DNA of 64,000 nt from Fulvivirga maritima (GTDB lineage Bacteria > Bacteroidota > Bacteroidia > Cytophagales > Cyclobacteriaceae): positions 4,583,001 through 4,647,000 of the forward strand of contig NZ_CP089980.1 in the NCBI RefSeq assembly GCF_021389955.1, read 5' to 3'. Under the pieces are notes generated by a model that did not search any database, was not told the origin of the DNA, and worked only from the letters and a program-made list of their open reading frames with translations. Shown piece after piece: positions 47,732-64,000 of this stretch. The position numbers were made by a program, and so were the translations under genes. The first letter of the stretch is position 1. Each line of letters begins with the position of its first letter.

Positions 47732-50700
47732 ATGACGCTACGTTTTACTAACCTCAACAGGCGGTCGGGGTTGAGATTGCTCCTCAGTCTGTTCGTAATG
47801 CTTACCTGTAGTCTTTCCTATGCACAAAGCAGAATCTCAGGTACCATTCTTGATGATTCAGGCTCAGCACTTCCGGGAGCCTCTGTGCTAATTAAAGGAA
47901 CTTCTAAAGGTACAGTTACTGATATCAATGGAGAATACAGTTTATCTGCTAACCCGGAAGATGTACTAATCTTTTCTTTTATAGGGTACACCACCCAAGA
48001 GATTAATGTAGGCTCCCAAACCAAAATAGATGTAACCCTGGAGCTCAACGCACAGGAACTTACCGAAGTAGTAGTGGTAGGTTACGGTACGCAGAAAAGA
48101 GCACAGGTTACTGGAGCTATCGCCTCCATAGAAGAGGAGGAGATCACAGCAGTGCCGGTAGCTACTACAGATCAGGTACTACAAGGTCGAGCTCCTGGTG
48201 TTTCTGTAATTAATAACGGTTCTCCGGGTACTAACCCAAATATTACAATCAGGGGCTTAAGTACACTTAATAACAACAATCCCTTATATGTGGTAGATGG
48301 AATTATCGTATCAGGCATTGGTGATTTGAACCCGAATGATATTGAGAATATCCAGATATTAAAAGACGCTTCTACCACAGCTGTTTATGGTTCTAAAGGA
48401 TCAAATGGTGTGGTTTTAATCACTACTAAAACAGGTAAGTCAGGTAAAGTAAAAGTAGATTTTAGTACTTACGCAGGTAGCCAATGGTCAACTAAGCGAT
48501 TTGATTTGCTGAACACCCAACAGTATGTGCAGTATGCCAATGATATTGCTGCTCCTCCCAGAACTTCAGATCCACAGTATGCTAATATGCTTCAAAATGA
48601 TACGGATTGGCAAGATGAAATCTTTCAATCTGGGTTAATGCAGAATTATACTCTGGGAGTATCTGGAGGGGGTGAAAATAGTACCTTCCGTATTTCTGCA
48701 GGATACTTGAATCAGGAAGGTATTATTATTACTACCGATTATGAGCGCTTTAACCTTAGGGCCAATAGTAATTTCACATTAGGTAAATTTGAGTTTGGAG
48801 AGACATTGTCTTTGGCTCTGAGTGATCAGTCTCCCGAGACTAGTAGTGGGGGGCGTTCTATTATAGAGCATTCAATTAAAATGCCACCATACTTGTCCGT
48901 TCGAAATCCTGATAATTTGGGAGGTTTCCAAGGACCTAATTCGTCCATTGACGGACAGGATGCTGCCAATCCAGTCAGAATTTTAGAATTGGTAGATATT
49001 AGTAACAGAGAAAGAAATATAATAGGTAATATATATGGTCAGTATGAGATAATAGATGGTCTTAAATTTAAGTCTCAACTAGGAGGTGAATATTCTCATT
49101 TTAGATTTAATATTCATTCGCCTTCATATAATGATGATTCTGATGGAGCTACTGGTGCACAACCTTTTTCTGAATCTTACCTGAGCAATGGAGAGCTCAT
49201 GACTGTGACTTTTACCAATAGTCTTAACTATAATCTAACGTTAGCCGATCAGCATAATTTTGAAATTTTAGCGTTAACTGAATATGTAGCTACGGATACT
49301 AGAAATCAAAATTCGAGTACAAGGAATGAATTGTCCGATGATATAGAAGAATTGTGGTTTCAGAATCTAGTAACTAATTCTTCTACTATAGAATACAGAA
49401 GAGTAGGTTATTTGGCCAGATTAAATTATAATTTTGAAGGTAAATATATTTTCTCAGGATCTTTTAGAAGGGATGCTTCATCCCGTTTTGGAGCCAATGA
49501 AAGATGGGGGTCATTTTCTTCTATTTCGTTAGGATGGAGAATAAGCGATGAAGATTTCTTTAGTTCATTAGATTTTATTAGTAATCTAAAATTAAGGGCC
49601 AGTTGGGGGCAAACTGGTAATGATAATATTATGGCTTACGGATATCAAAGCTTAATAGAGCCTACCTTCTTTTATCCTATAGGAACTGAATTAACAGCTG
49701 GAGCCAGCTCAGCAGGTTTAGCCAATCCCGACCTAAAGTGGGAAACTAATGAAATGTCTAACATAGGTTTAGATGGAGGATTACTAGATGATAAAATTAC
49801 TTTTTCTTTAGAGTATTATTTCAACAAAGGAAAGGATATACTTTTACCTACAAAGTTACCTAGTTCATCTGGTTTTTATCAAAACGATTATGTCAGAAAT
49901 ATTGGGGAAATGGAGACAAAAGGTTTTGAAGCAATGATAGGTTATCAAGGTAAATCTGGAGATTTTGAATGGTCTGTATCCTTAAACTTAGGTACAAGTA
50001 AGAATGAAGTCACCAGTACTGGCCCCAATCCAGCTTTAGAAGGAGCGTCATTTGAGGGACAATTTATAACTCGAGTGCAGGTAGGAGAACCAGCCTTTAG
50101 TTTTTATGGATGGCAATTTGATGGTATTTTCCAGAATCAGGCAGAGATTGAGGCCCATGCTATTCAACCCAATGCTGAGCCAGGAGATTTTAGAATTGTC
50201 AATACAAATACATCTGAAGTTAATGGTAATCAGGTTATTAATGATGATGATAGAGTTTTTATTGGGAATCCTTACCCTAAAGCTACAGGTGGGCTTAACA
50301 TATCAGGTAAATATAAAAACTTTGATTTGAGCATCTTTGTAAATGGTGTTTATGGCAATGATGTATATAATACTAATAAATATGATTTAGAAGGAATGCC
50401 ACGTCTTTTTAACTCAGGCACAGCCGTACTTGATCGTTGGACAGGAGAGGGGACATCTAATACTGTTCCAAGAGCATTAGGTGTTAGTACTAACACGGAA
50501 ATATCCAGCAGGTTTGTCGAAGATGGCTCTTTCACTAGATTTAGAAACATTTCTATAGGCTACACCATCCCTCCATCTGTATTTAATGATAAGATATCTA
50601 AATTCAGAATATATGTAAGTGGACAGAACCTAATCACAATAACAGATTATAGTGGCTTGGATCCTGAAATTGGTAATTACTCTGCAACTGCCCCCAATGC

Positions 50701-50815
50701 TGTACCGGGAGCCATTGGTGGTTACAATACTGCCAATAACTTCTCCTATGGAGTTGATTTTGGAAATTACCCAATTGCTAAATCCATCATTGCAGGTATT
50801 CAAATCGGATTTTAA
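47732..50815 (+). CDS. SusC-like TonB-linked outer-membrane protein
   Basis: 1027 residues, full length. Signal peptide, then the carboxypeptidase-regulatory-like domain (RISGTILDDSGSALPGASVL), the TonB-box area and plug with ALTEVVVVGYGTQKR-like text (ELTEVVVVGYGTQKRAQVTG), VLQGRAPGVSV, TIRGLSTLNNNNPLYVVDGI, KDASTTAVYGSKGSNGVVLI, then a 22-strand barrel. It imports glycans or other ligands with its SusD partner 5 bases downstream. Confidence 0.96.
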   Translation: MTLRFTNLNRRSGLRLLLSLFVMLTCSLSYAQSRISGTILDDSGSALPGASVLIKGTSKGTVTDINGEYSLSANPEDVLIFSFIGYTTQEINVGSQTKIDVTLELNAQELTEVVVVGYGTQKRAQVTGAIASIEEEEITAVPVATTDQVLQGRAPGVSVINNGSPGTNPNITIRGLSTLNNNNPLYVVDGIIVSGIGDLNPNDIENIQILKDASTTAVYGSKGSNGVVLITTKTGKSGKVKVDFSTYAGSQWSTKRFDLLNTQQYVQYANDIAAPPRTSDPQYANMLQNDTDWQDEIFQSGLMQNYTLGVSGGGENSTFRISAGYLNQEGIIITTDYERFNLRANSNFTLGKFEFGETLSLALSDQSPETSSGGRSIIEHSIKMPPYLSVRNPDNLGGFQGPNSSIDGQDAANPVRILELVDISNRERNIIGNIYGQYEIIDGLKFKSQLGGEYSHFRFNIHSPSYNDDSDGATGAQPFSESYLSNGELMTVTFTNSLNYNLTLADQHNFEILALTEYVATDTRNQNSSTRNELSDDIEELWFQNLVTNSSTIEYRRVGYLARLNYNFEGKYIFSGSFRRDASSRFGANERWGSFSSISLGWRISDEDFFSSLDFISNLKLRASWGQTGNDNIMAYGYQSLIEPTFFYPIGTELTAGASSAGLANPDLKWETNEMSNIGLDGGLLDDKITFSLEYYFNKGKDILLPTKLPSSSGFYQNDYVRNIGEMETKGFEAMIGYQGKSGDFEWSVSLNLGTSKNEVTSTGPNPALEGASFEGQFITRVQVGEPAFSFYGWQFDGIFQNQAEIEAHAIQPNAEPGDFRIVNTNTSEVNGNQVINDDDRVFIGNPYPKATGGLNISGKYKNFDLSIFVNGVYGNDVYNTNKYDLEGMPRLFNSGTAVLDRWTGEGTSNTVPRALGVSTNTEISSRFVEDGSFTRFRNISIGYTIPPSVFNDKISKFRIYVSGQNLITITDYSGLDPEIGNYSATAPNAVPGAIGGYNTANNFSYGVDFGNYPIAKSIIAGIQIGF

Positions 50816-50820
50816 TTAAC

Positions 50821-52320
50821 ATGATCATGAAAAATATAAATAAAACAATATTGTTGCTCTGCATACTTTTTATGACTTATAGTTGTAATGAAGATGATTT
50901 GTCATTAGAAAGTCCAAACAGACCTCCCGCGGATAATTTCTTTCAAAATAGAGCCCAACTTCAGGCTTCGGTTAATGCAATTTATTCCAACCTACAAACG
51001 CAAGGGTTATATAATAGACATATGTTTTTTGCAATGGATAATATGGCGCATGAAAATTCTGGTAACTCTCAACTTGAGGCGGATAAGAGGCAATATTTAG
51101 AATTTACCTTTAATGCAGATCATGGTGCTATTGGTGCTTTTTGGGAAAGCTGTTATAGAGGTATTCATAAAGCTAATTATGTGATTAACAATCAAGAATT
51201 AATAGATCAAATCCTCGTTAGTGAATTGCCACCTGAAGAGAAAAATAAATTTTTAGGAGAGGCTCATTTTCTTAGAGCATTCTATTATTTTATTTTAGTT
51301 ACGAGATTTGGGGATATACCCTATATCAAGGAAATACCTCAATCTACAGAAGGCTTTCCTATTCGTCCAGAAGAAGATATTTATAATGATATTATAATTC
51401 CTGATTTAGAGTTTGCTGTAGCCAATTTATATGCTAAAGAGAATACTGAAAATGGTAGAGCAACGGTTGGAGCTGCATATGCTTTATTAGGAAAAGTGCA
51501 CTTGTATAGGCAAGAGTATCAAGCAGCTAAAGATGCGTTTACTAATATTTTAGGTGAATATACATTAGTAAATAATTATGAGGAGAATTTTCTGGAAGAA
51601 ACAGAACACAATGAAGAATCTATTTTTGAAGTAGAATTTGATGATGCTTTTCCTGATACAGATAAATGGAATTCGGATGTTTCTGGAGCAGGCTATAATG
51701 AAGTGACCTTTCGTGGACAGGAGTATGGTTGGAATGACTGGTTCAATGTTTATCCTTCTGAAATGCTTCTTGATGAATATGAAGACGGTGATCCCAGATA
51801 TGACATGACCTTTTACTCCAATGGAGATACCTTCGCAGGTGGTATTGTATCCATTCCTCTTGATAGAGTAGCAGCATGGAGAAAGTACCAAAATTACTAT
51901 AAAGATGCTAATGAAGATCAGGCATCAGGTATTAATATGAAGGTTATAAGGTTTGCTGACGTTCTGCTAATGATGGCAGAGGTAGAAAATGAGCTGGCAG
52001 CTGATGGAGGTGATGCGTTAATGTATTTAAATATGGTGAGAGATCGGGTCGGTATGCCTAACTATGGTACCCCTGCTATGAATGCTACTTATCCTGTTAC
52101 TACTAAACAGGAACGATTTGAAGCAATAGTGCATGAACGCATGGTGGAGCTAGCTGGGGAGCAGGTGAGATTTCCAGACTTAGTAAGATGGGGTATAGCT
52201 GGTGATGTTCTTGGTCAATTTGATTTTCAGGTAGGTAAGCATGAGCATTTTCCTATTCCTCAAAGAGAAATCAACTCTAATGACAAGGTGACTAACGCAG
52301 ATCAAAATAATGGATACTAA
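50821..52320 (+). CDS. SusD/RagB-family nutrient-binding lipoprotein
   Basis: 499 residues. Lipobox region LFMTYSCNEDD; TPR-rich body with LRAFYYFILVTRFGDIPYI, RATVGAAYALLGKVHLYRQ and the C-terminal signature MKVIRFADVLLMMAEVENEL then RVGMPNYG and FPIPQREINSN. It caps the SusC barrel and captures the ligand. A weak terminator follows the stop. Confidence 0.96.
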   Translation: MIMKNINKTILLLCILFMTYSCNEDDLSLESPNRPPADNFFQNRAQLQASVNAIYSNLQTQGLYNRHMFFAMDNMAHENSGNSQLEADKRQYLEFTFNADHGAIGAFWESCYRGIHKANYVINNQELIDQILVSELPPEEKNKFLGEAHFLRAFYYFILVTRFGDIPYIKEIPQSTEGFPIRPEEDIYNDIIIPDLEFAVANLYAKENTENGRATVGAAYALLGKVHLYRQEYQAAKDAFTNILGEYTLVNNYEENFLEETEHNEESIFEVEFDDAFPDTDKWNSDVSGAGYNEVTFRGQEYGWNDWFNVYPSEMLLDEYEDGDPRYDMTFYSNGDTFAGGIVSIPLDRVAAWRKYQNYYKDANEDQASGINMKVIRFADVLLMMAEVENELAADGGDALMYLNMVRDRVGMPNYGTPAMNATYPVTTKQERFEAIVHERMVELAGEQVRFPDLVRWGIAGDVLGQFDFQVGKHEHFPIPQREINSNDKVTNADQNNGY

Positions 52321-52374
52321 AATCTTATAAAGCATTAATGCTGAAGATTATCTCTTGTATAATAAGTTAAGTTG

Positions 52375-52418
52375 AAAAGGTTCTGAAGGCGTTTAACATG
52401 TTTTTAGAACCTTTTTTT
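52375..52418 (+). terminator. Hairpin after susD
   Basis: AAAAGGTTCT (52375-52384) pairs with AGAACCTTTT (52406-52415) around a 21-base loop and is followed by more T. It lies between the SusD and FG-GAP genes and could terminate or attenuate transcription of the latter. Confidence 0.6.
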
Positions 52419-52457
52419 GAATTACAAATAATTGATCTATTCCTAAATAAACTAATT

Positions 52458-55400
52458 ATGTCATTACTGCAGAAGTTTAAGTACAGTATACTCGCTGGCT
52501 GCTTCGGTCTGGTGCTAAGTTGTATGCCAGAGAAGCCCAATGAAAAGGTCAGTGAGGAAAATGATGTGAAGTATGCACTCTTTAAAAAAGTTTCAATTGA
52601 GAAGTCTAATATAGATTTTGCCAATAAGCTTACAGAAACGGATACATTTAATTACTTCAATTACCCTTATATCTATATGGGAGGCGGTGTTTCCGTGGGG
52701 GATTTTAACAATGATGGCCTTATTGATATCTATTTCACCGGCAATATGGTGGAAAATAAGCTTTATCTCAATAAGGGAAATCTGGAATTCAAAGATGTGA
52801 CCCAGACTTCGGGTACGGCCGGAGATGGCTCCTGGATGCACGGTGTCACTGTCTGTGATATTAATAATGATGGCTGGCAGGATATTTATATCAGTGTATC
52901 TGGTAGAAGTAAGAAAACACCTAATCAATTATTCGTTAATCAAGGCTTAAATGATGAAGGTATTCCTGTCTTTAAAGAGATGGCTATGCAATATGGTATA
53001 GCTGATGTTGGCCATAGTACACAGTCCACCTTCTTTGATTATGATAATGATGGCGACCTGGATTTATATGTGGCTAACTATCCCATAACCAAGTTTGATA
53101 CTCCGTCATTTTATTACAGTCAAATGAATAAACACCCCAGAATGGATCTCTCTGATCATTTATATAGGAATAATGGTGATGGTACTTTTACTAATGTAAC
53201 AGAAGAGGCGGGTCTGCTTTCTTTTGGTCTGTCTTTGAGTGCTACCATTAGTGACCTTAATAATGACGGCTTTAAAGATATATATGTATCTAACGATTTT
53301 GCTAGCCCTGATATCTTGTATATGAATAACGGGGATGGCACTTTTTCTAATACCATTAAGCAATCTACCAGACAAACGGCTTACTATGGAATGGGAGCCG
53401 ATGTGGCTGATTTTAATAATGATGGGTACATGGATATTTTTCAGGCAGATATGGCTCCTGAAGATAACAGACGGTCTAAAGAAAATATGTCTGGAATGAA
53501 CCCTGCAGGTTTTTATGAGCTGGTAGATTTAGGGCTTAACCACCAATATATGTACAATGCTTTGCAAGTACACCGTGGGGTTGATGCCAATGGCCTGCCT
53601 CAATATAGTAACATTGGTTGGTTGGCCGGTCTTACCTCTACAGACTGGAGTTGGTCTCCGCTCTTTGCTGATTTCGATAATGATGGCTGGAAAGATATTT
53701 TCGTTTCCAATGGTACCAGAAGGGATGTGAACAATAATGATTATTTCAAGAAGATACATTCTAATGATATTTATTTCAAAGCAAGTCATGGTGGTAAGAG
53801 TGATAATCAGCTGGAGAAAGTAAAGAAAATGCCTTCGGAGCCGATTGCTAATTATGTTTTTAAAAATAATGGAGATCTCACCTTTGAGAATAAAATAGAA
53901 GCTTGGGGGCTGACTGACAAGGGGTTCTCTAATGGGGCTACTTATGCTGATCTTGATAATGATGGAGACCTTGAATTAATCATTAGTAATATAGATAACA
54001 AGGCAGATATTTATGAGAATATATCTCATGATCATGGCAAGCACTATATTTCTGTGGACTTTAAAGGCCCGGAAGCGAATAAAATGGGAATAGGCACTCA
54101 TGTTAAATTATGGGCTGGAGATCTGTTTCAGGTGGGTGAGCTTACTTTAACCAGAGGCTATCAATCTTCTGTAGCTCCGGAGTTGCATTTTGGATTAGGT
54201 AGTTTAACCGCAGTAGATTCATTAGAAGTAATTTGGCCAGATGGAAAGTCACAGTTAATCAAAAACGTGGAGTCAGATCAAACATTGACACTTAATTATG
54301 GTGAAGCAATGAAGACAAAAACAGCAACAAAAGAAGAGAATGCTCAACTGTTTGCTGCCTATAGTGGTGATTCTACTGTTTTACCAAGCCATGTGGAAAA
54401 TGAGTTTAATGACTTTGATATACAGGTCTTATTACCGCACAAGATGTCCAATTTTGGTCCTGCATTGGCAGTAGGTGATTTTAATGGTGATGGATTAGAT
54501 GACTGCTACATTGGAGCTGCCTCAGGTAGTAATGGTGCTATTTATAAACAAACGGATAATGGCTCTTTTACGAAAATTGATTTTCAAAATACTGCGGATC
54601 TTGCTTATGAAGATTTAGGTGCCACTTTCTTTGATGCAGATAATGATGGTGATCTTGATTTGTACATTGTGAGTGGAGGTAATGAATTTTCCGGTAAGGA
54701 AAATTACTACCAGGACAGGCTTTATATTAATGACAAAGGCAATTTTGTCAAATCTGATTTGCCAGAAATTACAGGTAGTGGCTCCGTAGTGAGACCATAT
54801 GATTATGATGGTGATGGAGACCTTGATTTGTTTGTTGGAGGTAGGCTGACATCTGGCCGATATCCATACCCGGGAAGTAGCTATCTATTGCAAAATAATA
54901 CTAAAAATGGAAAGGTAAGCTTCACTGTAGTAACCAATGAAGTAGCGCCAGGCTTAGAGAATGCAGGTATGGTCACAGATGCTCTTTGGACAGATTTTAA
55001 TAATGATGGACAAATAGACCTGATGGTAGTAGGAGAGTGGATGCCTATAAAAGTATACATTAACAATAATGGCACTTTTGAGGATCGTTCCGGAGATTAT
55101 TTTACTGGTAATACCTCTGGCTGGTGGTTTAGTATTGCTAGCGGAGATTTTGATAATGATGGTGACACCGACTATGTATTAGGGAACCTGGGACTTAATT
55201 ATAAATACCAGGCAGTACCTGGCAAGCCTTTTAATATTTATGCCAGTGATTTTGATAAAGATAAAAGTAGCGATATTGTATTGAGCTATCATAATTCAGG
55301 GCAGGAGTTTCCCGTTAGGGGAAGAGGTTGCTCTTCTCAGCAAATACCAGCCATAAAAGCCAAGTTTAAGGATTATTATACCTTCTCCAGAGCCAATGTT

Positions 55401-55823
55401 ATTGATATTTATGGAGAAGAGAATCTGGAAAATGCTCTAAGCTACAGCGTAGAAAGCTTCGCTAGTATCTATCTGGAAAATAAGGAAGGTAAATATGATA
55501 TGCTTAACCTACCTAATGAAGCTCAAATGTCTCCAATCAATGATATTTTGGTGAAGGACTGGAATAATGATGGCAATTTAGACTTGGTAGTAGCAGGTAA
55601 TCTTTTCGCTTCTGAGGTAGAAACGCCAAGAGCTGACGCAGGTATTGGTTTATGCCTTTTGGGAGATGGTGAAGGCGGCTTTAAAGCTATGAATTTTAAT
55701 GAAAGCGGTATTTTTATGCCTTATGACGTAAAGCAGATGGCCGAAATTAAATTGGGTAGAAAAGAGGGTTTTGTTTCAGTAAGTAATCAAGGGCCAACAC
55801 AAGTGTATCAACTACAAAAGTAA
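52458..55823 (+). CDS. FG-GAP/VCBS repeat lipoprotein with ASPIC/UnbV domain (CRTAC1-like)
   Basis: About 1121 residues from ATG 52458 (MSLLQKFKYSILAGCFGLVL, lipobox LSCMPE); a longer frame to 52398 overlaps the terminator and is not preferred. Many FG-GAP calcium-binding repeats with the DxDNDGxxD text (GDFNNDGLIDIYF, FDYDNDGDLDLYVANY, DLNNDGFKDIYVSND). An ASPIC/UnbV segment occurs at about 540-600 (GIGTHVKLWAGDLFQVGEL, GYQSSVAPELHFGLG), and a second propeller set follows. A surface beta-propeller paired with SusC/D in many Bacteroidota; exact ligand or activity unknown. Confidence 0.9.
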   Translation: MSLLQKFKYSILAGCFGLVLSCMPEKPNEKVSEENDVKYALFKKVSIEKSNIDFANKLTETDTFNYFNYPYIYMGGGVSVGDFNNDGLIDIYFTGNMVENKLYLNKGNLEFKDVTQTSGTAGDGSWMHGVTVCDINNDGWQDIYISVSGRSKKTPNQLFVNQGLNDEGIPVFKEMAMQYGIADVGHSTQSTFFDYDNDGDLDLYVANYPITKFDTPSFYYSQMNKHPRMDLSDHLYRNNGDGTFTNVTEEAGLLSFGLSLSATISDLNNDGFKDIYVSNDFASPDILYMNNGDGTFSNTIKQSTRQTAYYGMGADVADFNNDGYMDIFQADMAPEDNRRSKENMSGMNPAGFYELVDLGLNHQYMYNALQVHRGVDANGLPQYSNIGWLAGLTSTDWSWSPLFADFDNDGWKDIFVSNGTRRDVNNNDYFKKIHSNDIYFKASHGGKSDNQLEKVKKMPSEPIANYVFKNNGDLTFENKIEAWGLTDKGFSNGATYADLDNDGDLELIISNIDNKADIYENISHDHGKHYISVDFKGPEANKMGIGTHVKLWAGDLFQVGELTLTRGYQSSVAPELHFGLGSLTAVDSLEVIWPDGKSQLIKNVESDQTLTLNYGEAMKTKTATKEENAQLFAAYSGDSTVLPSHVENEFNDFDIQVLLPHKMSNFGPALAVGDFNGDGLDDCYIGAASGSNGAIYKQTDNGSFTKIDFQNTADLAYEDLGATFFDADNDGDLDLYIVSGGNEFSGKENYYQDRLYINDKGNFVKSDLPEITGSGSVVRPYDYDGDGDLDLFVGGRLTSGRYPYPGSSYLLQNNTKNGKVSFTVVTNEVAPGLENAGMVTDALWTDFNNDGQIDLMVVGEWMPIKVYINNNGTFEDRSGDYFTGNTSGWWFSIASGDFDNDGDTDYVLGNLGLNYKYQAVPGKPFNIYASDFDKDKSSDIVLSYHNSGQEFPVRGRGCSSQQIPAIKAKFKDYYTFSRANVIDIYGEENLENALSYSVESFASIYLENKEGKYDMLNLPNEAQMSPINDILVKDWNNDGNLDLVVAGNLFASEVETPRADAGIGLCLLGDGEGGFKAMNFNESGIFMPYDVKQMAEIKLGRKEGFVSVSNQGPTQVYQLQK

Positions 55824-55828
55824 AGAGG

Positions 55829-56527
55829 CTAGGTAAGCCTTTGGGTGACTTCATCTCTATAAGATTTGCCTATAGGAATATAAATTTCACCGACTTGTAG
55901 CTGATTTCCATAAATAGATTTAATTACAGTCTTATTCACTATATAAGACTTATGCGTTCTTATAAAAAGGCTTGAGGGTAATTCACTTTCAAGCTTTTTT
56001 AATGATTCAAGAGCAATAATCTTTTCGCCAGATTGCAGATGAAATCTAACATATTCTCTTAGGCCTTCTATATACTTGATTTCAGATATTGGAACCAGGT
56101 GTATTTTATGATCAGCCTTTATAGAAATCGTAGTTTTTTGAGGTGACTCTGAAGAAGTCTTTTGCTCCAATTTTATTAGATCTAAAGCTTTGTTTATGGC
56201 ATTAATAAATCGCTCTAGCTTAATGGGTTTAAGCAAATAATCTAATACATCAAGTTCATAACTCTCAAGGGCATAATTTGGGTAAGCCGTGGTGAGTATT
56301 ACCTTTGGCTTTTGCGTAAAAGATTTTAGAAATTCAATTCCTGTAAGCTCAGGCATTTGAATATCCAGCAGGATGATGTCCACAGGCTGTTCATTTAAAA
56401 AGCTCAAGGCTTCCACAGGATTTTTAAAGGTGCCTACTAGCTCCAGCTGACTCATTTTGCTTACATACTGAGTGAGTAATACTCGGGCCGGGTGTTCATC
56501 ATCTATTATTATACAGCGCGCTTTCAT
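55829..56527 (-). CDS. LytTR-family response regulator
   Basis: 232 residues. N-terminal receiver with phosphorylation site in IILLDIQMPELTGIEFLKSF and conserved Lys near LDYLLKPIKLERF; C-terminal LytTR DNA-binding domain (EIKYIEGLREYVRFHLQSG, SLFIRTHKSYIVNKTVIKSI). Its start overlaps the kinase stop by four bases (ATGA). It forms a two-component pair with the upstream kinase. Confidence 0.95.
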   Translation of the reverse strand: MKARCIIIDDEHPARVLLTQYVSKMSQLELVGTFKNPVEALSFLNEQPVDIILLDIQMPELTGIEFLKSFTQKPKVILTTAYPNYALESYELDVLDYLLKPIKLERFINAINKALDLIKLEQKTSSESPQKTTISIKADHKIHLVPISEIKYIEGLREYVRFHLQSGEKIIALESLKKLESELPSSLFIRTHKSYIVNKTVIKSIYGNQLQVGEIYIPIGKSYRDEVTQRLT

Positions 56528-57600
56528 ACTTCTATAGTGAGGTTAACAGTGAATGAATCAGCTTCTTCTTCAATAATTAGTTCGTGTTTATTAGGATAAA
56601 GTAACTCTAATCGTTTTTTTACATTTTCAAGCCCTATGCCGGAGGTTTTGTCTTTAGAGTAATTTTGAACAGGCCTACTATTACTTATGCTGAATAAAAT
56701 TTGCTCTTCTTTTGATATGAGTGTGATTTTTAACCAACCATTATCACTTTCCAGGTTGCTGTGTTTAAAGCTATTTTCTATAAAGGGAATGAAAAGCATG
56801 GGTTCTACAGGCAGGGCCGTATTTGTTACCTTAATATTCAAATCAATATTGGCTTCTCCTTCAATTTTTAACTTTTGAAAATCTATGAAATTATGGATGT
56901 ATTCGATCTCTTTATCCAGACTCACTTTGTTCTCATTACTTTCATAAAGCACATACCTAAGCATGTCTGATAGCTTCATAATCATATCCGGAGCCTTTTC
57001 CTGACTAGTGAAAGACATGCTGTAGATGTTGTTTAGAGCGTTAAATAGAAAATGAGGATTAATCTGAGACTTTAATAATTTAAGCTCTGTATTTAAATTT
57101 TCATTTTTAATATCTGCCTCAGCTTCCTGTCGTTTACGAGTTTGCATGGTAAGCCAGAAAGTGGTGCTTATAAATAATACCGCTACAGATGATATATTAT
57201 CCATTATCACTCTTGGGCTTATTCTAAATGTTCTTACAAACTTATCAGGTCTATGATCAGGCCTGGGTGGAGGCATATCTCTAAGGCCTTGGAATCTTTC
57301 CGGTGGGTCAATAGGGAAAAAATGATGAATAAATTCTCTGAAAAAGTAGATAGCTATCAGCAGAGAGATTATGGAAAGCAAGTACAGGATATACCTGTTT
57401 TTTTCCATTAGTTTAGGGAGCAACACGTATACATTAATATAAAAAATCAAGGCATGAACTCCTATGATCCTCAGTGTGAGCCACAAGCTTTGTACATAAT
57501 CCATCCAAGCTGATGACACCCAGTTATACATTACTATAGCGTAAGTAAGCCATAATATTATATGTATTCCTATTCTTTGAATTCTCTCTCTTCTCATCAC
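56524..57600 (-). CDS. LytS-like sensor histidine kinase
   Basis: 358 residues. Four transmembrane segments (about 13-30, 40-62, 70-92 and 133-152). Between the third and fourth is a Pro/Arg-rich loop, about 92-130, containing DPPERFQGLRDMPPPRPDHR, which by topology should face the periplasm. The cytosolic part has the His_kinase motif LLKSQINPHFLFNALNNIYS (phosphorylated His near 182) and an HATPase with IPFIENSFKHS and GIGLENVKKRLELLYP. Divergent from a small periplasmic protein and an outer-membrane receptor. Confidence 0.93.
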   Translation of the reverse strand: MMRRERIQRIGIHIILWLTYAIVMYNWVSSAWMDYVQSLWLTLRIIGVHALIFYINVYVLLPKLMEKNRYILYLLSIISLLIAIYFFREFIHHFFPIDPPERFQGLRDMPPPRPDHRPDKFVRTFRISPRVIMDNISSVAVLFISTTFWLTMQTRKRQEAEADIKNENLNTELKLLKSQINPHFLFNALNNIYSMSFTSQEKAPDMIMKLSDMLRYVLYESNENKVSLDKEIEYIHNFIDFQKLKIEGEANIDLNIKVTNTALPVEPMLFIPFIENSFKHSNLESDNGWLKITLISKEEQILFSISNSRPVQNYSKDKTSGIGLENVKKRLELLYPNKHELIIEEEADSFTVNLTIEV

Positions 57601-57806
57601 ATTGTAAATTTAAATAAACATTACAAGCGGTACTGATAATATTCAACCAATGGCCTTTCTTTATCTATGAATAGAAAATGAGCCTCTATGAAAAACAGGT
57701 CATTGGGTGTAGTTGTACTTTCGTTGAGAAAAAGCTTTAGTATGTTGAAAGAATTTTCAAGTGAGACATAATTAAGAAAAATTGCTTGGTGAAATTATAA
57801 CAAGAT

Positions 57807-58172
57807 ATGAAAAATATAGTAATGATATGCTTTGCGCTTATAGCTCTAGGCCAAACAGCCTTAGGGCAGCCAGGTAGAAGAGGTGACTTTGCTGATAGAA
57901 TTGACGAAGAGAAGAAGGAGGTGCTACAGGAAATAACTGATTTGAATGATGATCAGAAATTGCTGATAGAAGAAGTATATGAGCAATTTAAAGCTTCATT
58001 AAAAAATACTATGAGTACTGGAGAACGAGGAGAGATGAGGGAGAAATTTCAAGACATAAAAACAGAAAAGGATAATGCCATTAAGGATGTTTTAAATGAA
58101 GATCAATTCAAACTTTATGAAGAGCTTATGCAAAAGAGAAAACCTCCGAGAAGGCAGCAGAGGGATGAATAA
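57807..58172 (+). CDS. Small Arg-rich periplasmic helical protein (Spy-like)
   Basis: 121 residues. Signal peptide (CFALIALGQTALGQP), then an all-helical charged body with LNDDQKLLIEEVYEQFKASL and LNEDQFKLYEELMQ, patterned like Spy/CpxP or DUF4890 proteins, and a basic end (KRKPPRRQQRDE). It overlaps the next gene by eight bases (ATGAATAA), so the two are coupled. Role as sensor accessory or chaperone is inference. Confidence 0.75.
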   Translation: MKNIVMICFALIALGQTALGQPGRRGDFADRIDEEKKEVLQEITDLNDDQKLLIEEVYEQFKASLKNTMSTGERGEMREKFQDIKTEKDNAIKDVLNEDQFKLYEELMQKRKPPRRQQRDE

Positions 58173-60969
58173 TATTATTAAACTTGTTGTGTATGTTATG
58201 ATTCTGACTCCAGGAACAATCCTGGGTCAGAATCTTTCTGTTTCTGGCCATCTGGTAGATCAAAACGATCAGTCTGCCGTGGTGGGAGCCACTGTGTTGC
58301 TTACCAATGTGAAAGATACTACTAACATATACTATGGAGTAACTGATGAGCAGGGTGCTTTTCAAGTTAAGAACCTGTCAAAGGCCTTTTATAAATTAAG
58401 AATTACCAGTATTGGTTATAAACCTTATCTGCAGTTTGTAAGGGTAGAGACAGAAAAAACAGACCTGGGTAAACTCACTTTAGAGGAAGATACCAAGGTG
58501 CTCAGCGATGTAGAAATTACCGGAGAAGTGATACCCGTTAGGCAAAAGGGAGATACCACGGAGATGAACGCACTCGCATATAAAGTTAATCCTGATGCTA
58601 ATGCAGAAGATCTTGTAGCAAAAATGCCAGGGATAATAGTGAAAAGTGGATCTGTACAAGCACAAGGTGAAGATGTTAAGAAGGTGCTGGTAGATGGAAA
58701 GGAGTTTTTTAGTTCTGATCCTTCATTGGCCTTGAAAAATATACCTGCAGAAATCATAGATAAAATAGAAGTCTTCGATCAGCAGAGTGATCAGTCGCAG
58801 TTCACAGGTTTTGACGATGGCAATACAACTAAGACCATCAATATTGTAACCAGACCAGATAGGAGAAAGGGACAGTTTGGTAGGGCCTATGGCAGTTATG
58901 GTTCTGAAGATAGGTATGCATTAGGAGTTAATTTAAACTCATTTGATAGTACCAGAAGAATGACCGTGCTGGGCATGGTCAATAACATTAATCAGCAGAA
59001 TTTCGCTCAGGAAGATTTATTAGGAGTTATGAGTGGCGGAGGCAGAAGAGGTAGACCGGGCAGAGGCCCAAGAGGTGGAGGTTCATTCAGAGGAGGAGGT
59101 TCTGGTAATTTCTTAGGATCACAGCAAAGTGGTATTTCAGAAACTCAGTCTTTTGGTATTAATTTCGATGATGAGCTTTCGTCAAAAATTCATATAAATG
59201 GCAGTTATTTCTATAACAGAAGTGATAACAGTAATGATCAAACTTCATATAGAGAGACTTTTCTAAATGGAGATTCGAGCCAATTTTATAATGAAACTTC
59301 TCAATCAGGAAGCATTAATAATAACCACAGACTCTCTATGCGTATGGAGTATGAAATGGATGATAACAATTCTATTCTTTTTTCACCAAGAATAAGCTTT
59401 CAGGATAATAGCTCTATATCATCTCAGAGTGGAATTACTACTTCTCAGTCTGAAAACCTGATTAGCAACACGCTCTCAAATTATGATAATGATCGTTTCG
59501 GTCTTAATTTTTCAGGAAACTTATTGTTTAGGCATAAATTCGAAAAGAAGGGAAGAACACTTTCACTAGATGTCTCCAGTAGTGTTAATACTAATGACGG
59601 AGAATCTTATCAGAGGTCTGAAAACACATATTATCTTAATAGTGATCGAAGCGACAGCTTAAATCAGTTTATAGATTCCAATACTAGAGGTAGAACTATC
59701 AGTGGAAATTTGGTCTATACTGAGCCAATAGGAGAGTATGCTCAGTTAGAGTTTACTTATAATCTGTCTCAAACTTATAATGATGCTGAGAAAGAGAATT
59801 ATGATTATGACTTTCAGCAAGAGGTTACGCAGCAATTAGATACTGCCCTTTCTAATACTTTTGAAAGTAAGTACTTGACCCACAGACCTGCAGTGGGCTG
59901 GGGATATAGAAAAGATGCTTTAAGTGTGAGAGCAAATGTAGGCTTTCAAAGTGCTACGCTTTCCAGTGATCAGGAGTTTCCTTATAACTATTATTTGAAA
60001 CGTACTTTTCAAAGTGTGTTGCCTGATCTGATGATTCGTTATAGAGTTTCTCGTAGTAAGAATTTTAATCTCTTTCTGAGAACCAGCACTAGTGCACCTT
60101 CAATTTCTCAACTTCAGAATGTGGTAGATAACACTGAGCCTCTGTTCTTATCTTCTGGTAATGCAGATTTAGATCAAAGCAGAACATCACAACTTCATAT
60201 TAGATATTCAAATGCTAATTCGGAGAAGTCTACCCAGTTTTTTGTTATGCTCATGGCACAGAATACTGCGGATTACGTTACAAATGCCACTTTTGTAGCA
60301 TCACAAGATTCTGTTCTTAACGGCGGCATAGTTCTCAATAGCGGAGCACAGTTATCTACACCAGTCAATATTGATGGGTACTGGAATACCAGAGCATTTT
60401 CAGCTTACGGATTCCCTGTTAAGTGGTTGAAATCCAATATTAACACGTCATTATCTGTCGGTTATGTGCGTGCGCCCGGTATTACTAATAATCAATCTAA
60501 TGTAAGTAGAACCTATAGTGCAGAAGGAGGAGTAACTATAGCCAGTAATATTAGCGAAAAGGTGGATTTTACGGTTTCTTACCAGGCTAATTATAATTAT
60601 GTGGTCAACAGTTTGCAAAAAGATGATGCGGACGATTATATAACCCATAACCTAGGCTTGAAATCTAATTTTATATTCTGGAATGGTTTGGTGTTTAGAA
60701 ATGATTTTCAATACCTGCAATATGCCGGATATGATGATGCTAGCCTCAATGAGGGCTATGTGCTCTGGAATATGAGTGTGGGTAAGAAATTCCTCAAAAA
60801 TGATAGAGCAGAACTGTCTCTTTCAGTATATGACTTGCTGGCTAATAACACCAGTATTTCACGAACTAATACCGAGAGTTATATTGAGGAGGTGAGAACT
60901 AACGTGTTACAAAGGTATTTTCTAGCCACTTTCACCTACACAATTAGAAATTTCAAGAGCAAATCATAA
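58165..60969 (+). CDS. TonB-receptor-like outer-membrane barrel protein
   Basis: About 934 residues from ATG 58165 (MNNIIKLVVYVMILTPGTIL), within the end of the previous gene; a longer frame from 58096 has no signal. Carboxypeptidase-like N-domain (LSVSGHLVDQNDQSAVVGAT), then a plug-like region (AYKVNPDANAEDLVAKMPGI, KVLVDGKEFFSSDPSLALKN). A Gly/Arg-rich loop at about 295-325 (GGGRRGRPGRGPRGGGSF) precedes the barrel. This type lacks clear TonB-box evidence and is often annotated outer membrane beta-barrel family protein. It is coupled to the small Arg-rich protein and divergent from the LytS/LytTR pair. Confidence 0.88.
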   Translation: MNNIIKLVVYVMILTPGTILGQNLSVSGHLVDQNDQSAVVGATVLLTNVKDTTNIYYGVTDEQGAFQVKNLSKAFYKLRITSIGYKPYLQFVRVETEKTDLGKLTLEEDTKVLSDVEITGEVIPVRQKGDTTEMNALAYKVNPDANAEDLVAKMPGIIVKSGSVQAQGEDVKKVLVDGKEFFSSDPSLALKNIPAEIIDKIEVFDQQSDQSQFTGFDDGNTTKTINIVTRPDRRKGQFGRAYGSYGSEDRYALGVNLNSFDSTRRMTVLGMVNNINQQNFAQEDLLGVMSGGGRRGRPGRGPRGGGSFRGGGSGNFLGSQQSGISETQSFGINFDDELSSKIHINGSYFYNRSDNSNDQTSYRETFLNGDSSQFYNETSQSGSINNNHRLSMRMEYEMDDNNSILFSPRISFQDNSSISSQSGITTSQSENLISNTLSNYDNDRFGLNFSGNLLFRHKFEKKGRTLSLDVSSSVNTNDGESYQRSENTYYLNSDRSDSLNQFIDSNTRGRTISGNLVYTEPIGEYAQLEFTYNLSQTYNDAEKENYDYDFQQEVTQQLDTALSNTFESKYLTHRPAVGWGYRKDALSVRANVGFQSATLSSDQEFPYNYYLKRTFQSVLPDLMIRYRVSRSKNFNLFLRTSTSAPSISQLQNVVDNTEPLFLSSGNADLDQSRTSQLHIRYSNANSEKSTQFFVMLMAQNTADYVTNATFVASQDSVLNGGIVLNSGAQLSTPVNIDGYWNTRAFSAYGFPVKWLKSNINTSLSVGYVRAPGITNNQSNVSRTYSAEGGVTIASNISEKVDFTVSYQANYNYVVNSLQKDDADDYITHNLGLKSNFIFWNGLVFRNDFQYLQYAGYDDASLNEGYVLWNMSVGKKFLKNDRAELSLSVYDLLANNTSISRTNTESYIEEVRTNVLQRYFLATFTYTIRNFKSKS

Positions 60970-61152
60970 TGCTAATAGAAGATATATGATTGTTTGTTGA
61001 AAATTATTTCTGAAAAAATATTCATAAGCTACTTTTAAATTATACGGGACTAGAGCTTTTATTAGCATCATGGTATAAAAATTGTAAAAGCTAAAAAGGC
61101 AATAGTAAAAAAGTAATAATTGCTTTAGTTCCGTTCTCTAAAAAATAGCAAT

Positions 61153-61293
61153 ATGAAAAAGAATAAGCAGGCGTTCATTTTGTGTATGGGTGTGGTTTTG
61201 GCCATTCTTCTTCTTCTGGTAATTAAACGGGACGTTACCACTAAAAGTACTACCATAGAAGAGGTGGCCTCTTCTATTGACGGTAGTGACTAA
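61153..61293 (+). CDS. Short single-span membrane protein
   Basis: A 46-residue frame from ATG 61153: basic start (MKKNKQAFIL), hydrophobic CMGVVLAILLLLVI, then KRDVTTKSTTIEEVASSIDG and stop at 61293. Clear N-in single-span topology. Downstream of a long spacer after the barrel gene and convergent with the glycosyltransferase. No family recognised; length makes it tentative. Confidence 0.5.
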   Translation: MKKNKQAFILCMGVVLAILLLLVIKRDVTTKSTTIEEVASSIDGSD

Positions 61294-61307
61294 TGAGATT
61301 AAAGTGG

Positions 61308-62489
61308 TTATGCTGCTCTTTTTGCTTTTTCCCACACAGCAGATTGTGATCCTTTTAAATACCTGAAAAAACCTCTGAAAACGGCATAATTCATCATGCT
61401 GAAATAGTAAGGTATAAAGAATATCTTCAGCTTTAAATTATTGTTTTGAAGTAGCCAGCCAATAATAGAAAAGGCATAAAAGGCTATTTGACACACCAAT
61501 ATTAGTTGATATAGCGGTATTTGAAGATAAGCCAGATATATATTAGCCAATAATACTAGAATGAGACATAGTGGTGCTAAAGTCCAGCGAAGAACGCGGT
61601 GAGAAATGTACTGAAAGCTTAAGACACCATATTTAAAAATATTAAGCAGCCCCTTTAACTTTACTATAGCTTGTATACCACCTGCAGCAATTCTTATTTT
61701 TCTTTTTAATTCTTCCTTCACTGAAGCTGACCCTGATTCCATAGCATAAGCATCAGGCTCATACACTACTTTGTAACCTTCCATAGCCAGAGAAAGAGAA
61801 ATATAAAAATCCTCAATTACGATATTTGTGTCCACCGGGTGGAATAATTCTGTCCGTATAGCGAACAGTTCACCTGCAGCTCCAACTACTGAGTGCAATT
61901 CAGAATCCCATTTCTTTAATTTAGATTCATACTTCCAGTAGAAGCCTTCGCCAGAGGCGGCAGCTCCATCCTTGTCTTTAGAAAGCACCCTTTTTTCACC
62001 GGCTACCAGACCTACTTTTGAGCTAGCGAAGTGGCGCCCTAAGTTTTTCAAGGCATCCTGATTTAAAAGTGTATTGGCATCAGAAAATACAGTGATGTCT
62101 GTTTTCATAAAAGGAATCATACGGTTTACGGCCGCTATTTTTCCACTTCTTTTATCTTCATGGTGGTGCTCTACTTCCGGATACTCCTTAATAATATCCA
62201 TAGTTCTATCAGAAGATCCATCCGTAACTATTATTACCTTCAGCTTATCTTTTGGATAATCAAGATTGAGAGAGTTCGCAATCTTTTCTCTAATGAAATC
62301 TTCTTCATTATAGGCTGCTATAACATGGGTAATGTTTGGTAGAAAATCTGCTTCGGATTCTGGCTTTTGAGATGAAGAGAAGGCCCTCTTTAATTTTACC
62401 AATATGAATAATAAAATACCATAACCGAGGTAGGAGTAGAATATGATGAATATTCCGACCCAGAAGCAAATTTCTATAACTATTTTCAT
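61308..62489 (-). CDS. Membrane glycosyltransferase family 2
   Basis: 393 residues. One N-terminal membrane helix, then the GT2 catalytic domain with HVIAAYNEEDFIREKIANSL, VTDGSSDRTMDII, VFSDANTLLN (DxD-like), VIEDFYISLSL (ED motif) and KRKIRIAAGGIQAI in place of QxxRW; the C-terminus has about three more helices. Resembles BcsA/IcaA-like processive or chain-extending enzymes. Makes an extracellular or lipid-linked polysaccharide; product unknown. Confidence 0.92.
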   Translation of the reverse strand: MKIVIEICFWVGIFIIFYSYLGYGILLFILVKLKRAFSSSQKPESEADFLPNITHVIAAYNEEDFIREKIANSLNLDYPKDKLKVIIVTDGSSDRTMDIIKEYPEVEHHHEDKRSGKIAAVNRMIPFMKTDITVFSDANTLLNQDALKNLGRHFASSKVGLVAGEKRVLSKDKDGAAASGEGFYWKYESKLKKWDSELHSVVGAAGELFAIRTELFHPVDTNIVIEDFYISLSLAMEGYKVVYEPDAYAMESGSASVKEELKRKIRIAAGGIQAIVKLKGLLNIFKYGVLSFQYISHRVLRWTLAPLCLILVLLANIYLAYLQIPLYQLILVCQIAFYAFSIIGWLLQNNNLKLKIFFIPYYFSMMNYAVFRGFFRYLKGSQSAVWEKAKRAA

Positions 62490-62803
62490 TAAATATTTTT
62501 AGTCAGTAAAAACACGCAAAAAAGCGAGTTGTTATCATATATCAAAATTTTTTATGCAAAGTAAGTATTAAGAATAATAATGGATGTTAGAAATGTATAA
62601 AAATATATTATAAATTTGTTATAAATTTAAGTTTGAGAGACTAATGACAGCTTTTATTCCTTAATTTGTTAAACAATATTTTAAGAATCGATTTTCTGAA
62701 TTACTCTCAAATAAAAAGAAGTTCGTTTAATAGCGATAACTTTTAACACTTAGTAATGTTATTGCTGTTAATATTCACCTCTTGCATATATGGTTGTCTT
62801 ATA
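62490..62803. other. Divergent intergenic region
   Basis: Very AT-rich 314-base spacer between the glycosyltransferase and the MBG-repeat gene. It must hold the promoters for both; I see no coding frame, RNA gene or strong hairpin. Confidence 0.4.
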
Positions 62804-64000
62804 ATGAAGCAAAATTTACTAATTAATAATAAAGTATTCCTTCTCTTATGGTGCTTGGGATTGCCTTTTTTTGCGAAGGCACAAGATCCGTACATCACCA
62901 GCTCTCCGGTAGAATCAGCTACTTATGGAGAATCGTATTTATATGAAATTACCACTGGAGGTAATGATTTTTTGGGTATTTCTATAGTGCTTGAATCCGG
63001 AGAATTACCACAAGGTATTGTTCTTACAGATTTTGAGAATGGTACAGGTGAGCTAAGTGGAATTCCAGAAGAAACAGGTGAGTTTGAAATAGTACTGCGA
63101 GCAGAAGACTTTTTTGGAAGAGGTACAAATCAAAGTTTTACGCTTACGGTAAGCAAGGCAGAGGCTAATATTGAACTTAGTGGGTTGAATGCTACTTATG
63201 ATGGTAACCCTAAATCGGCCTCTTATACCACAGTTCCAGCAGGTCTTAACGTGAATTTAACATATAACGGAAGTACCACTGAGCCTGTAAATGTAGGGCA
63301 GTATGCGGTGGAGGCTACCATTGATGAACCTAATTATTCTGGTTCTGCATCAGGTACCCTTACAATAGTAAGAGGGGAAGCTACTATTCAGCTTAGTGAT
63401 TTGGAGCAGGTGTATGATGGCTCACCTAAGCCAGTAAGTTATACAACTGTGCCGGAGGGACTACCCGTAGATATTACCTATGATGGTTTAAGTACGGTGC
63501 CGGTTAATGCAGGTACTTATGCCGTTGAAGTCAGGGTTACCCACGGTAATTATCAAGGCTCGGCATCAGCTAATTTAGTGGTGTCAAAGGCTAATGCCAC
63601 GGTAAATGTGACTCAACTTAATCAGGTGTACAATGGTCAGCCCAGACAAGTATCAGTAAGTACAGTGCCTGCAGGACTTAGTTATGAAACTACCTATGAT
63701 GGATCTACAACCGCACCTACTAATGCAGGTACATATGATGTAGTGGTGAATATTGACAATATTAATTATCAAGGATCATTTACAGACCAACTACAAGTGC
63801 AAAAGGCCACTGGTATTGTTACTCTAAGTGCCTTTACTACCACATATAATGGAACTGCGCAGCAAGTGGGTGTTTCCACTTCGCCAGCAGGGCTTCCTTA
63901 TGAGGTCACTTATAATGGATCTACTACAGCACCCACTAATGCAGGAACGTATAATGTAGAAGCCACTATCACATCTAATAACTATGCGGGGGAAGCTACA
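62804..64000 (+). CDS. Large MBG-repeat secreted surface protein, partial
   Basis: ATG 62804, open to the window edge (399 codons). Signal peptide (VFLLLWCLGLPFFAKAQ), an Ig-like putative domain (TSSPVESATYGESYLYEITT; GELSGIPEETGEF), then at least four MBG (mother of bacterial Ig) repeats of about 75 residues, each with YDGNPK/YNGTAQ, VPAGL, TYDGSTTAPTNAGTY and NYxGxA. Such proteins are often several thousand residues with a C-terminal sorting domain and act in gliding or adhesion. The repeat units are near-identical at protein level, suggesting recent duplication. Confidence 0.9.
   Translation, partial: MKQNLLINNKVFLLLWCLGLPFFAKAQDPYITSSPVESATYGESYLYEITTGGNDFLGISIVLESGELPQGIVLTDFENGTGELSGIPEETGEFEIVLRAEDFFGRGTNQSFTLTVSKAEANIELSGLNATYDGNPKSASYTTVPAGLNVNLTYNGSTTEPVNVGQYAVEATIDEPNYSGSASGTLTIVRGEATIQLSDLEQVYDGSPKPVSYTTVPEGLPVDITYDGLSTVPVNAGTYAVEVRVTHGNYQGSASANLVVSKANATVNVTQLNQVYNGQPRQVSVSTVPAGLSYETTYDGSTTAPTNAGTYDVVVNIDNINYQGSFTDQLQVQKATGIVTLSAFTTTYNGTAQQVGVSTSPAGLPYEVTYNGSTTAPTNAGTYNVEATITSNNYAGEAT

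Follow-up and report, generated by a model that had tools for sequence, protein, structure and literature searches.

We analyzed a 64,000-nucleotide stretch of the complete, 6.39 Mb chromosome of Fulvivirga maritima, a marine Bacteroidota species of the order Cytophagales (contig NZ_CP089980.1, positions 4,583,001 to 4,647,000 of the forward strand; hereafter the window), focusing on four genes that form two divergent operons. One operon encodes a LytTR-family response regulator and a LytS-type sensor histidine kinase, the other a small periplasmic protein and a large outer-membrane barrel. In window coordinates, the genes are arranged as follows:

55829–56527, minus strand: LytTR-family response regulator of 232 amino acids, with a receiver and a LytTR DNA-binding domain (Pfam PF00072, 72.6 bits; PF04397, 64.8 bits)
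56524–57600, minus strand: LytS-type (PF06580) sensor histidine kinase of 358 amino acids, with four membrane segments predicted from hydropathy (Pfam PF06580, 93.1 bits)
57807–58172, plus strand: small signal-peptide protein of 121 amino acids, a likely member of the Spy/CpxP/CnrX superfamily with four predicted helices (AlphaFold2, Pfam matches of relatives, fold comparison)
58165–60969, plus strand: outer-membrane barrel of 934 amino acids, with a CarboxypepD_reg-like domain, a plug-like region, and an OMP_b-brl_3 barrel (Pfam PF14905, 86.7 bits; AlphaFold2; Foldseek; VIA)
58165–58172, plus strand: 8-bp overlap of the small-protein and barrel genes, ATGAATAA (gene coordinates)

A sequence-only reading of the window had reported a 4-bp overlap of the regulator and kinase genes, a 206-bp divergent gap, and the 8-bp overlap of the small-protein and barrel genes, and the gene coordinates agree on each point. 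The gap between the kinase and small-protein genes occupies 57601–57806, with the kinase starting at GTG 57600 or ATG 57597, and the layout of the 8-bp overlap makes translational coupling likely. The kinase carries an NPHFLFN motif within PF06580 and its partner combines a receiver with a LytTR domain (Pfam Response_reg and LytTR), which places the pair among LytS/LytTR two-component systems; the 5TM-5TMR_LYT sensor domain of LytS proper gave no Pfam match in the kinase at E up to 1. Pfam assigns CarbopepD_reg_2 and OMP_b-brl_3 to the barrel.

The small protein contains, at equivalent positions, the two LTxxQ motifs of the Spy/CpxP/ZraP/CnrX superfamily:

57942–57956, plus strand: first LTxxQ-like motif, LNDDQ, residues 46–50 at the start of helix 2 (Q50 invariant and L46 at least 90% conserved in 19 homologues)
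58092–58106, plus strand: second LTxxQ-like motif, LNEDQ, residues 96–100 at the start of helix 4 (Q100 at least 90% conserved in 19 homologues)

Relatives of the small protein are present in 45 of the 145 related genomes searched. An iterative profile gave 78 matches at E below 1e-4 within the loci collected for comparison (given below by L number), nearly all with a signal peptide, two LTxxQ-like motifs, and basic ends. The ends of the window's protein, described as Arg-rich in the sequence-only reading, are basic and flank an acidic core. Metal_resist and LTXXQ are the Pfam families of CnrX/ZraP and CpxP/Spy, respectively. Members of the profile family exceed the cut-off of Metal_resist (PF13801) in L060 (32.1 bits) and L136 (41.1 bits) and that of LTXXQ (PF07813) in L071 (25.2 bits). 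AlphaFold2 models the window's protein as four helices (predicted local distance difference test score, pLDDT, 84). When the profile was compared with the PDB, E. coli Spy was the only near full-length match (E 0.11), and VIA aligned the model to Spy (Z 7.4, 22% identity) and to Ni-bound CnrX (Z 7.3); Foldseek alone gave no significant match. No single test is proof, but motifs, Pfam matches of relatives, and fold together make it highly probable that the small protein belongs to the Spy/CpxP superfamily.

We observed the full divergent unit in the window and in L039, L051, L052, L079, L081, L157, L239, and L257, with hosts that include Splendidivirga (L051, the same as L086), Agaribacillus (L079), and metagenome-assembled genomes of Thermoflavifilum (L081) and Saprospiraceae (L157). 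Conservation of gene order had been proposed as a check on the unit, and by NCBI taxonomy the four genes recur in three orders – Cytophagales, Chitinophagales, and Saprospirales – well past close relatives. The arrangement varies: all four genes are co-directional in L050, and the small protein is co-directional with the kinase in L069. Since two Fulvivirga genomes (L075 and L076) keep a kinase divergent from a small protein with no adjacent barrel, gene context ties the small protein to the kinase; since small protein and barrel form a single open reading frame (ORF) in L053 and L128, where the kinase and regulator genes are divergent from it, gene context ties it to the barrel as well. Among 94 barrels, the small protein accompanies 13 of the 14 with a kinase nearby versus 18 of the 80 without one (Fisher p 8e-7, ignoring relatedness). 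Kinase-linked barrels turn up in several separate clades of the barrel tree, a distribution that requires about seven to nine changes, so the unit is not one inherited block.

Two other arrangements were seen at these barrels. In Pricia antarctica (L120:5504-5791), an EF-hand protein with a similar Arg/Gly-rich start occupies the small-protein slot before the barrel and is a possible non-homologous replacement. In Chitinophaga (L136, L149, L154, L155), the barrel is followed by a gene for 188–201 amino acids, a gene for 114–118 amino acids, and two small LTxxQ-type proteins, looking like an extracytoplasmic function (ECF) sigma/anti-sigma version.

The divergent gap contains two candidate binding sites for the regulator:

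57720–57750, plus strand: candidate operator facing the small-protein/barrel operon, TTCGTTGAG-N12-TATGTTGAA, exact (repeat pattern; enrichment in ten gaps)
57641–57671, minus strand: degenerate candidate operator facing the kinase-regulator operon, TTCATAGAT-N12-TTGGTTGAAT, two mismatches (position; relatives)

Characterized LytTR sites are 9-bp direct repeats 12 bp apart (PMC6193735). This layout, expected of LytS/LytTR systems, is found in the gap, where the candidate operator has the form 9-12-9 with a 21-bp period. Across ten unit gaps – two of them from the same fusion lineage, and thus not fully independent – we counted 20 TTGA pairs at 21-bp spacing versus 0.38 in dinucleotide shuffles, and none of 1000 shuffles came near the observed count at 21 bp or at any other spacing. 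Most small-protein-side sites lie 83–97 bp before the small-protein start (196 in L051). A repeat precedes the small protein in 7 of 11 full units, compared with 3 of 26 kinase-less small protein-barrel pairs and 4 of 59 other barrels. Four units outside the discovery set gave a clear repeat (L241), a degenerate triple (L239), and none (L246 and L257). At a tolerance of two mismatches, the whole window should contain about 0.7 matches by chance. The case for the kinase-side site is therefore its position and the relatives: arrays of two or three repeats are conserved on that side in L051, L052, L053/L128, and L079, and a pair in L075.

As the sequence-only reading noted, LytS/LytTR pairs usually sit beside the membrane genes that they control. 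A LytTR-type operator lies upstream of the barrel operon and tracks the presence of the kinase, and judging from the repeats the regulator very probably controls the small-protein/barrel operon. A wide regulon was rejected, as the genome has two exact operator matches only; the second (L228, around 6272) is in a region rich in transposases, and the next gene in the direction that it faces is about 1 kb away. A reversed control pattern has no match in the genome. The 21-bp repeats are also found between related LytS kinases and other divergent genes (L243:1254-1476 and L254:1217-1491), and this operator type may therefore be general to a LytTR subfamily.

The kinase has one conspicuous periplasmic segment, between its third and fourth transmembrane segments (TM3 and TM4):

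57211–57327, minus strand: Pro/Arg-rich TM3-TM4 periplasmic loop of the kinase, residues 92–130 (translation)

The loop had been assigned to the periplasm, and the topology given by four hydrophobic segments in the hydropathy profile agrees; it contains 8 Arg and 9 Pro. Where a small protein lies on the start side of the kinase, the predicted TM3-TM4 loop always has at least four Arg (16 of 16 kinases); among the other kinases, 14 of 33 have such a loop (Fisher p 8e-5, ignoring relatedness among kinases). Some of these 14 loci contain a small protein at another position and others contain none; the association is thus genuine without being exclusive. Within the genus, the nearest paralogues of the kinase (L189 and L190) are divergent from an unrelated 170-amino-acid protein, with 21-bp repeats facing its gene, and their loop is much longer and has a lower Arg density than that of the window's kinase. 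This difference fits kinase loops changing along with the partner.

A second kind of small periplasmic helical protein, with an LSxDEK motif, occurs near related kinases (L189:6383-8328, L190:6543-8612, L058:8414-11645). In L189 and L190 its gene is divergent from the kinase and faced by 21-bp repeats, and in L241 an LTxxQ domain appears to be fused to an LSxDEK-type domain.

The barrel scores well above the PF14905 (OMP_b-brl_3) cut-off of 27 bits and is a member of that family. In its AlphaFold2 model (pLDDT 85), about 26 strands are combined with a carboxypeptidase-like domain and a plug-like region. The plug and barrel fold resembles that of TonB-dependent receptors (Foldseek match to Cir, E 3e-19; VIA Z 11–14 over 390–510 residues), and the model also matches MtrB; the Pfam Plug and TonB_dep_Rec models gave no match at E up to 1. 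One disordered segment stands out:

59026–59124, plus strand: disordered Gly/Arg-rich insert, residues about 288–320 (pLDDT under 50 at 288–320)

The sequence-only reading had placed this insert before the barrel strands; in the model it belongs to the loop that follows predicted strand 3. Strand count to the C-terminus and the alternation of long and short connections predict that this loop is extracellular. The insert is common across the barrel subfamily, including many barrels without a small protein or kinase, and its Arg content is mildly higher in linked barrels (median 6 versus 3, p 0.03). Because it is predicted to be extracellular and is present in unlinked barrels, it is a poor candidate for contact with the kinase or small protein. 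The compositional bias said to be shared by three proteins thus narrows to the kinase loop, where it has the better support, and the small protein; as a mark of mutual contact it was rejected for the barrel insert. Elsewhere in the F. maritima genome (around 5585100; L230:4616-6790), an OMP_b-brl_3 gene has its match interrupted by an in-frame TAG, a possible pseudogene or sequencing error.

The locus as a whole suggests that Bacteroidota have an equivalent of the Cpx envelope-stress switch of E. coli, assembled from different components. We assign a probability of about 0.5 to the whole mechanism, an envelope sensor of the Cpx/Zra kind with a LytS/LytTR core and negative feedback by the small protein. 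The active kinase would phosphorylate the LytTR regulator, which would bind the 9-12-9 direct repeats in the gap. The regulator would activate, rather than repress, the small-protein/barrel operon and also its own operon, the latter less strongly in this genome. Co-produced with the barrel, the Spy/CpxP-like protein would work next to it in the periplasm, where its role is probably that of a chaperone or of a partner on the plug side. When free, the small protein would probably dock on the Arg-rich TM3-TM4 loop and hold the kinase off; once unfolded or occupied barrel, or envelope damage of another sort, had consumed it, the kinase would be released, completing a negative-feedback loop. The logic of the Cpx system fits the unit. 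There, cpxP is divergent from cpxRA and is a top Cpx target, and CpxP holds CpxA in check until misfolded proteins titrate it away (PMC6737893).

Several observations weigh against this mechanism. The window's small protein is itself below the Pfam cut-offs and has no significant match alone, and a Z of about 7 to Spy and CnrX lies within the range reached by unrelated helical bundles. An Arg/Pro-rich loop is likewise present in kinases that have no small protein next to them, many small-protein/barrel pairs stand without a neighboring kinase, and under the strict pattern no repeat is recognizable in the full units L239, L257, and L246. The two fusion genomes are closely related, which makes L053 and L128 one fusion event. 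More generally, the association counts ignore shared ancestry, and an independent-pairs test on the phylogeny of the barrels lacked power, with too few informative pairs.

The alternative that survives best, though we consider it rather unlikely, is that the kinase senses a signal of its own without contacting the small protein, with the operon as its output and the small protein as a dedicated chaperone or assembly factor of the barrel. Spy-family proteins are chaperones, kinase-less small protein-barrel pairs are common (18 of the 94 barrels), two loci carry small protein-barrel fusions, and the operator links the regulator to the operon – all as expected if the operon were output only. Such a role does not readily account for the retention of a divergent kinase and small protein without an adjacent barrel in L075 and L076, for the Arg-rich loops that accompany an adjacent small protein, or for the nearest paralogues in L189 and L190, which are divergent from a different small protein and have a different, longer loop.

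The sequence-only reading had instead favored a trans-envelope receptor pathway, in which the small protein relays ligand binding at the barrel to the loop of the kinase. Signaling from receptor to regulator is known from FecA/FecR, the barrel has a plug-like region and a receptor-like fold, and the fusion ties the small protein to the barrel. The kinase-small protein pairs of L075 and L076, however, have no barrel beside them, the Gly/Arg insert is predicted to be extracellular and is not specific to the unit, and the CpxP and ZraP precedents favor a soluble restraining or chaperone partner over a ligand relay; we regard the relay as improbable. It is also doubtful, if slightly less so, that the locus represents a LytS/LytTR pathway in which the state of a dedicated barrel is reported through the co-produced Spy-like protein to the inner-membrane kinase loop, by a trans-envelope route different from those of FecR-type and hybrid-kinase systems. 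Metal sensing of the CnrX/ZraP type, with the small protein binding a metal and signaling to the kinase, is suggested by the relatives above the Metal_resist cut-off (L060 and L136) and by the His-rich tails of the L075/L076 relatives, but is very improbable for the window, where it was rejected because the mature small protein contains no His or Cys and where no metal transporter is among the listed neighboring ORFs.

Beyond the four genes, an operon convergent with the regulator (47732–55823) encodes a 1027-amino-acid ORF that is probably of the SusC type, a SusD-like lipoprotein, and a 1141-amino-acid FG-GAP/ASPIC-UnbV protein. These genes were rejected as members of the unit, since neighbors of similar size occur in L039 only. 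An ORF of ~46 amino acids with one hydrophobic segment (61153–61293) lies between the barrel and glycosyltransferase genes, and an Rfam scan of 50000–64000 gave no structured RNA match.

Envelope monitoring in Bacteroidota is poorly known, and a 2026 study of Phocaeicola vulgatus described Spy as previously unstudied in gut Bacteroidales (PMC13114119). If the Cpx-like mechanism holds, the coupling of a CpxP-like protein to a LytS/LytTR pair would give the phylum a second mode of control, one that reached the Cpx design by convergence. The unit could also help to explain part of the LytS-type kinases in these genomes (18 PF06580 matches in that of F. maritima), and three of its features can be put to the test: the defined operator, the candidate interface between kinase and partner, and the natural fusion of small protein and barrel. 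We found no description of a LytTR-Spy/CpxP-barrel unit in a partial collection of the literature, so its status as undescribed is provisional.

Comparison with known systems clarifies which parts of the unit are shared and which differ. Like TonB-dependent receptors and OMP_b-brl_3 barrels, the barrel combines a CarboxypepD_reg-like domain, a plug-like region, and a large barrel; unlike TonB-dependent receptors, it has about 26 strands in the model rather than 22 and lacks a Pfam plug or TonB-receptor match. Among the neighboring ORFs scanned there are no CnrX-type sigma/anti-sigma genes. Elsewhere in the same genome (3065425–3067347; L232:4926-6848), an ECF sigma-like gene and two Metal_resist proteins, one of them membrane-anchored, form a CnrX-like system. 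In the Zra system, the regulator ZraR is of the NtrC type and zinc is the signal. The unit resembles ZraP-ZraSR in pairing a small chaperone-like periplasmic protein with a two-component system, and differs in its LytTR regulator and in the absence of His and Cys from the window's mature small protein. ZraP represses its two-component regulator, according to Appia-Ayme 2012 as cited in PMC6737893.

LytTR Regulatory Systems (LRS) consist of a LytTR protein and a membrane inhibitor, with no kinase, and are autoregulated (PMC6193735). The unit shares with them a LytTR regulator, 9-bp direct repeats 12 bp apart, and putative autoregulation, and departs from them in having a receiver domain and a histidine kinase. 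As in Cpx, the gene for a small periplasmic LTxxQ protein is divergent from a kinase-regulator operon. Unlike in Cpx, the kinase is of the LytS type (PF06580) without a large periplasmic domain, the regulator is LytTR rather than OmpR-type, and the small protein, which would inhibit the kinase, is coupled or fused to an outer-membrane barrel. Within the phylum, a comparable case is the CirYZ-Spy system of Bacteroidales, in which Spy is under sigma/anti-sigma pairs (PMC13114119). Both systems would place a Spy-like periplasmic protein of Bacteroidota under dedicated envelope-stress regulation – there by ECF sigma/anti-sigma pairs, and here by a LytS/LytTR two-component system.

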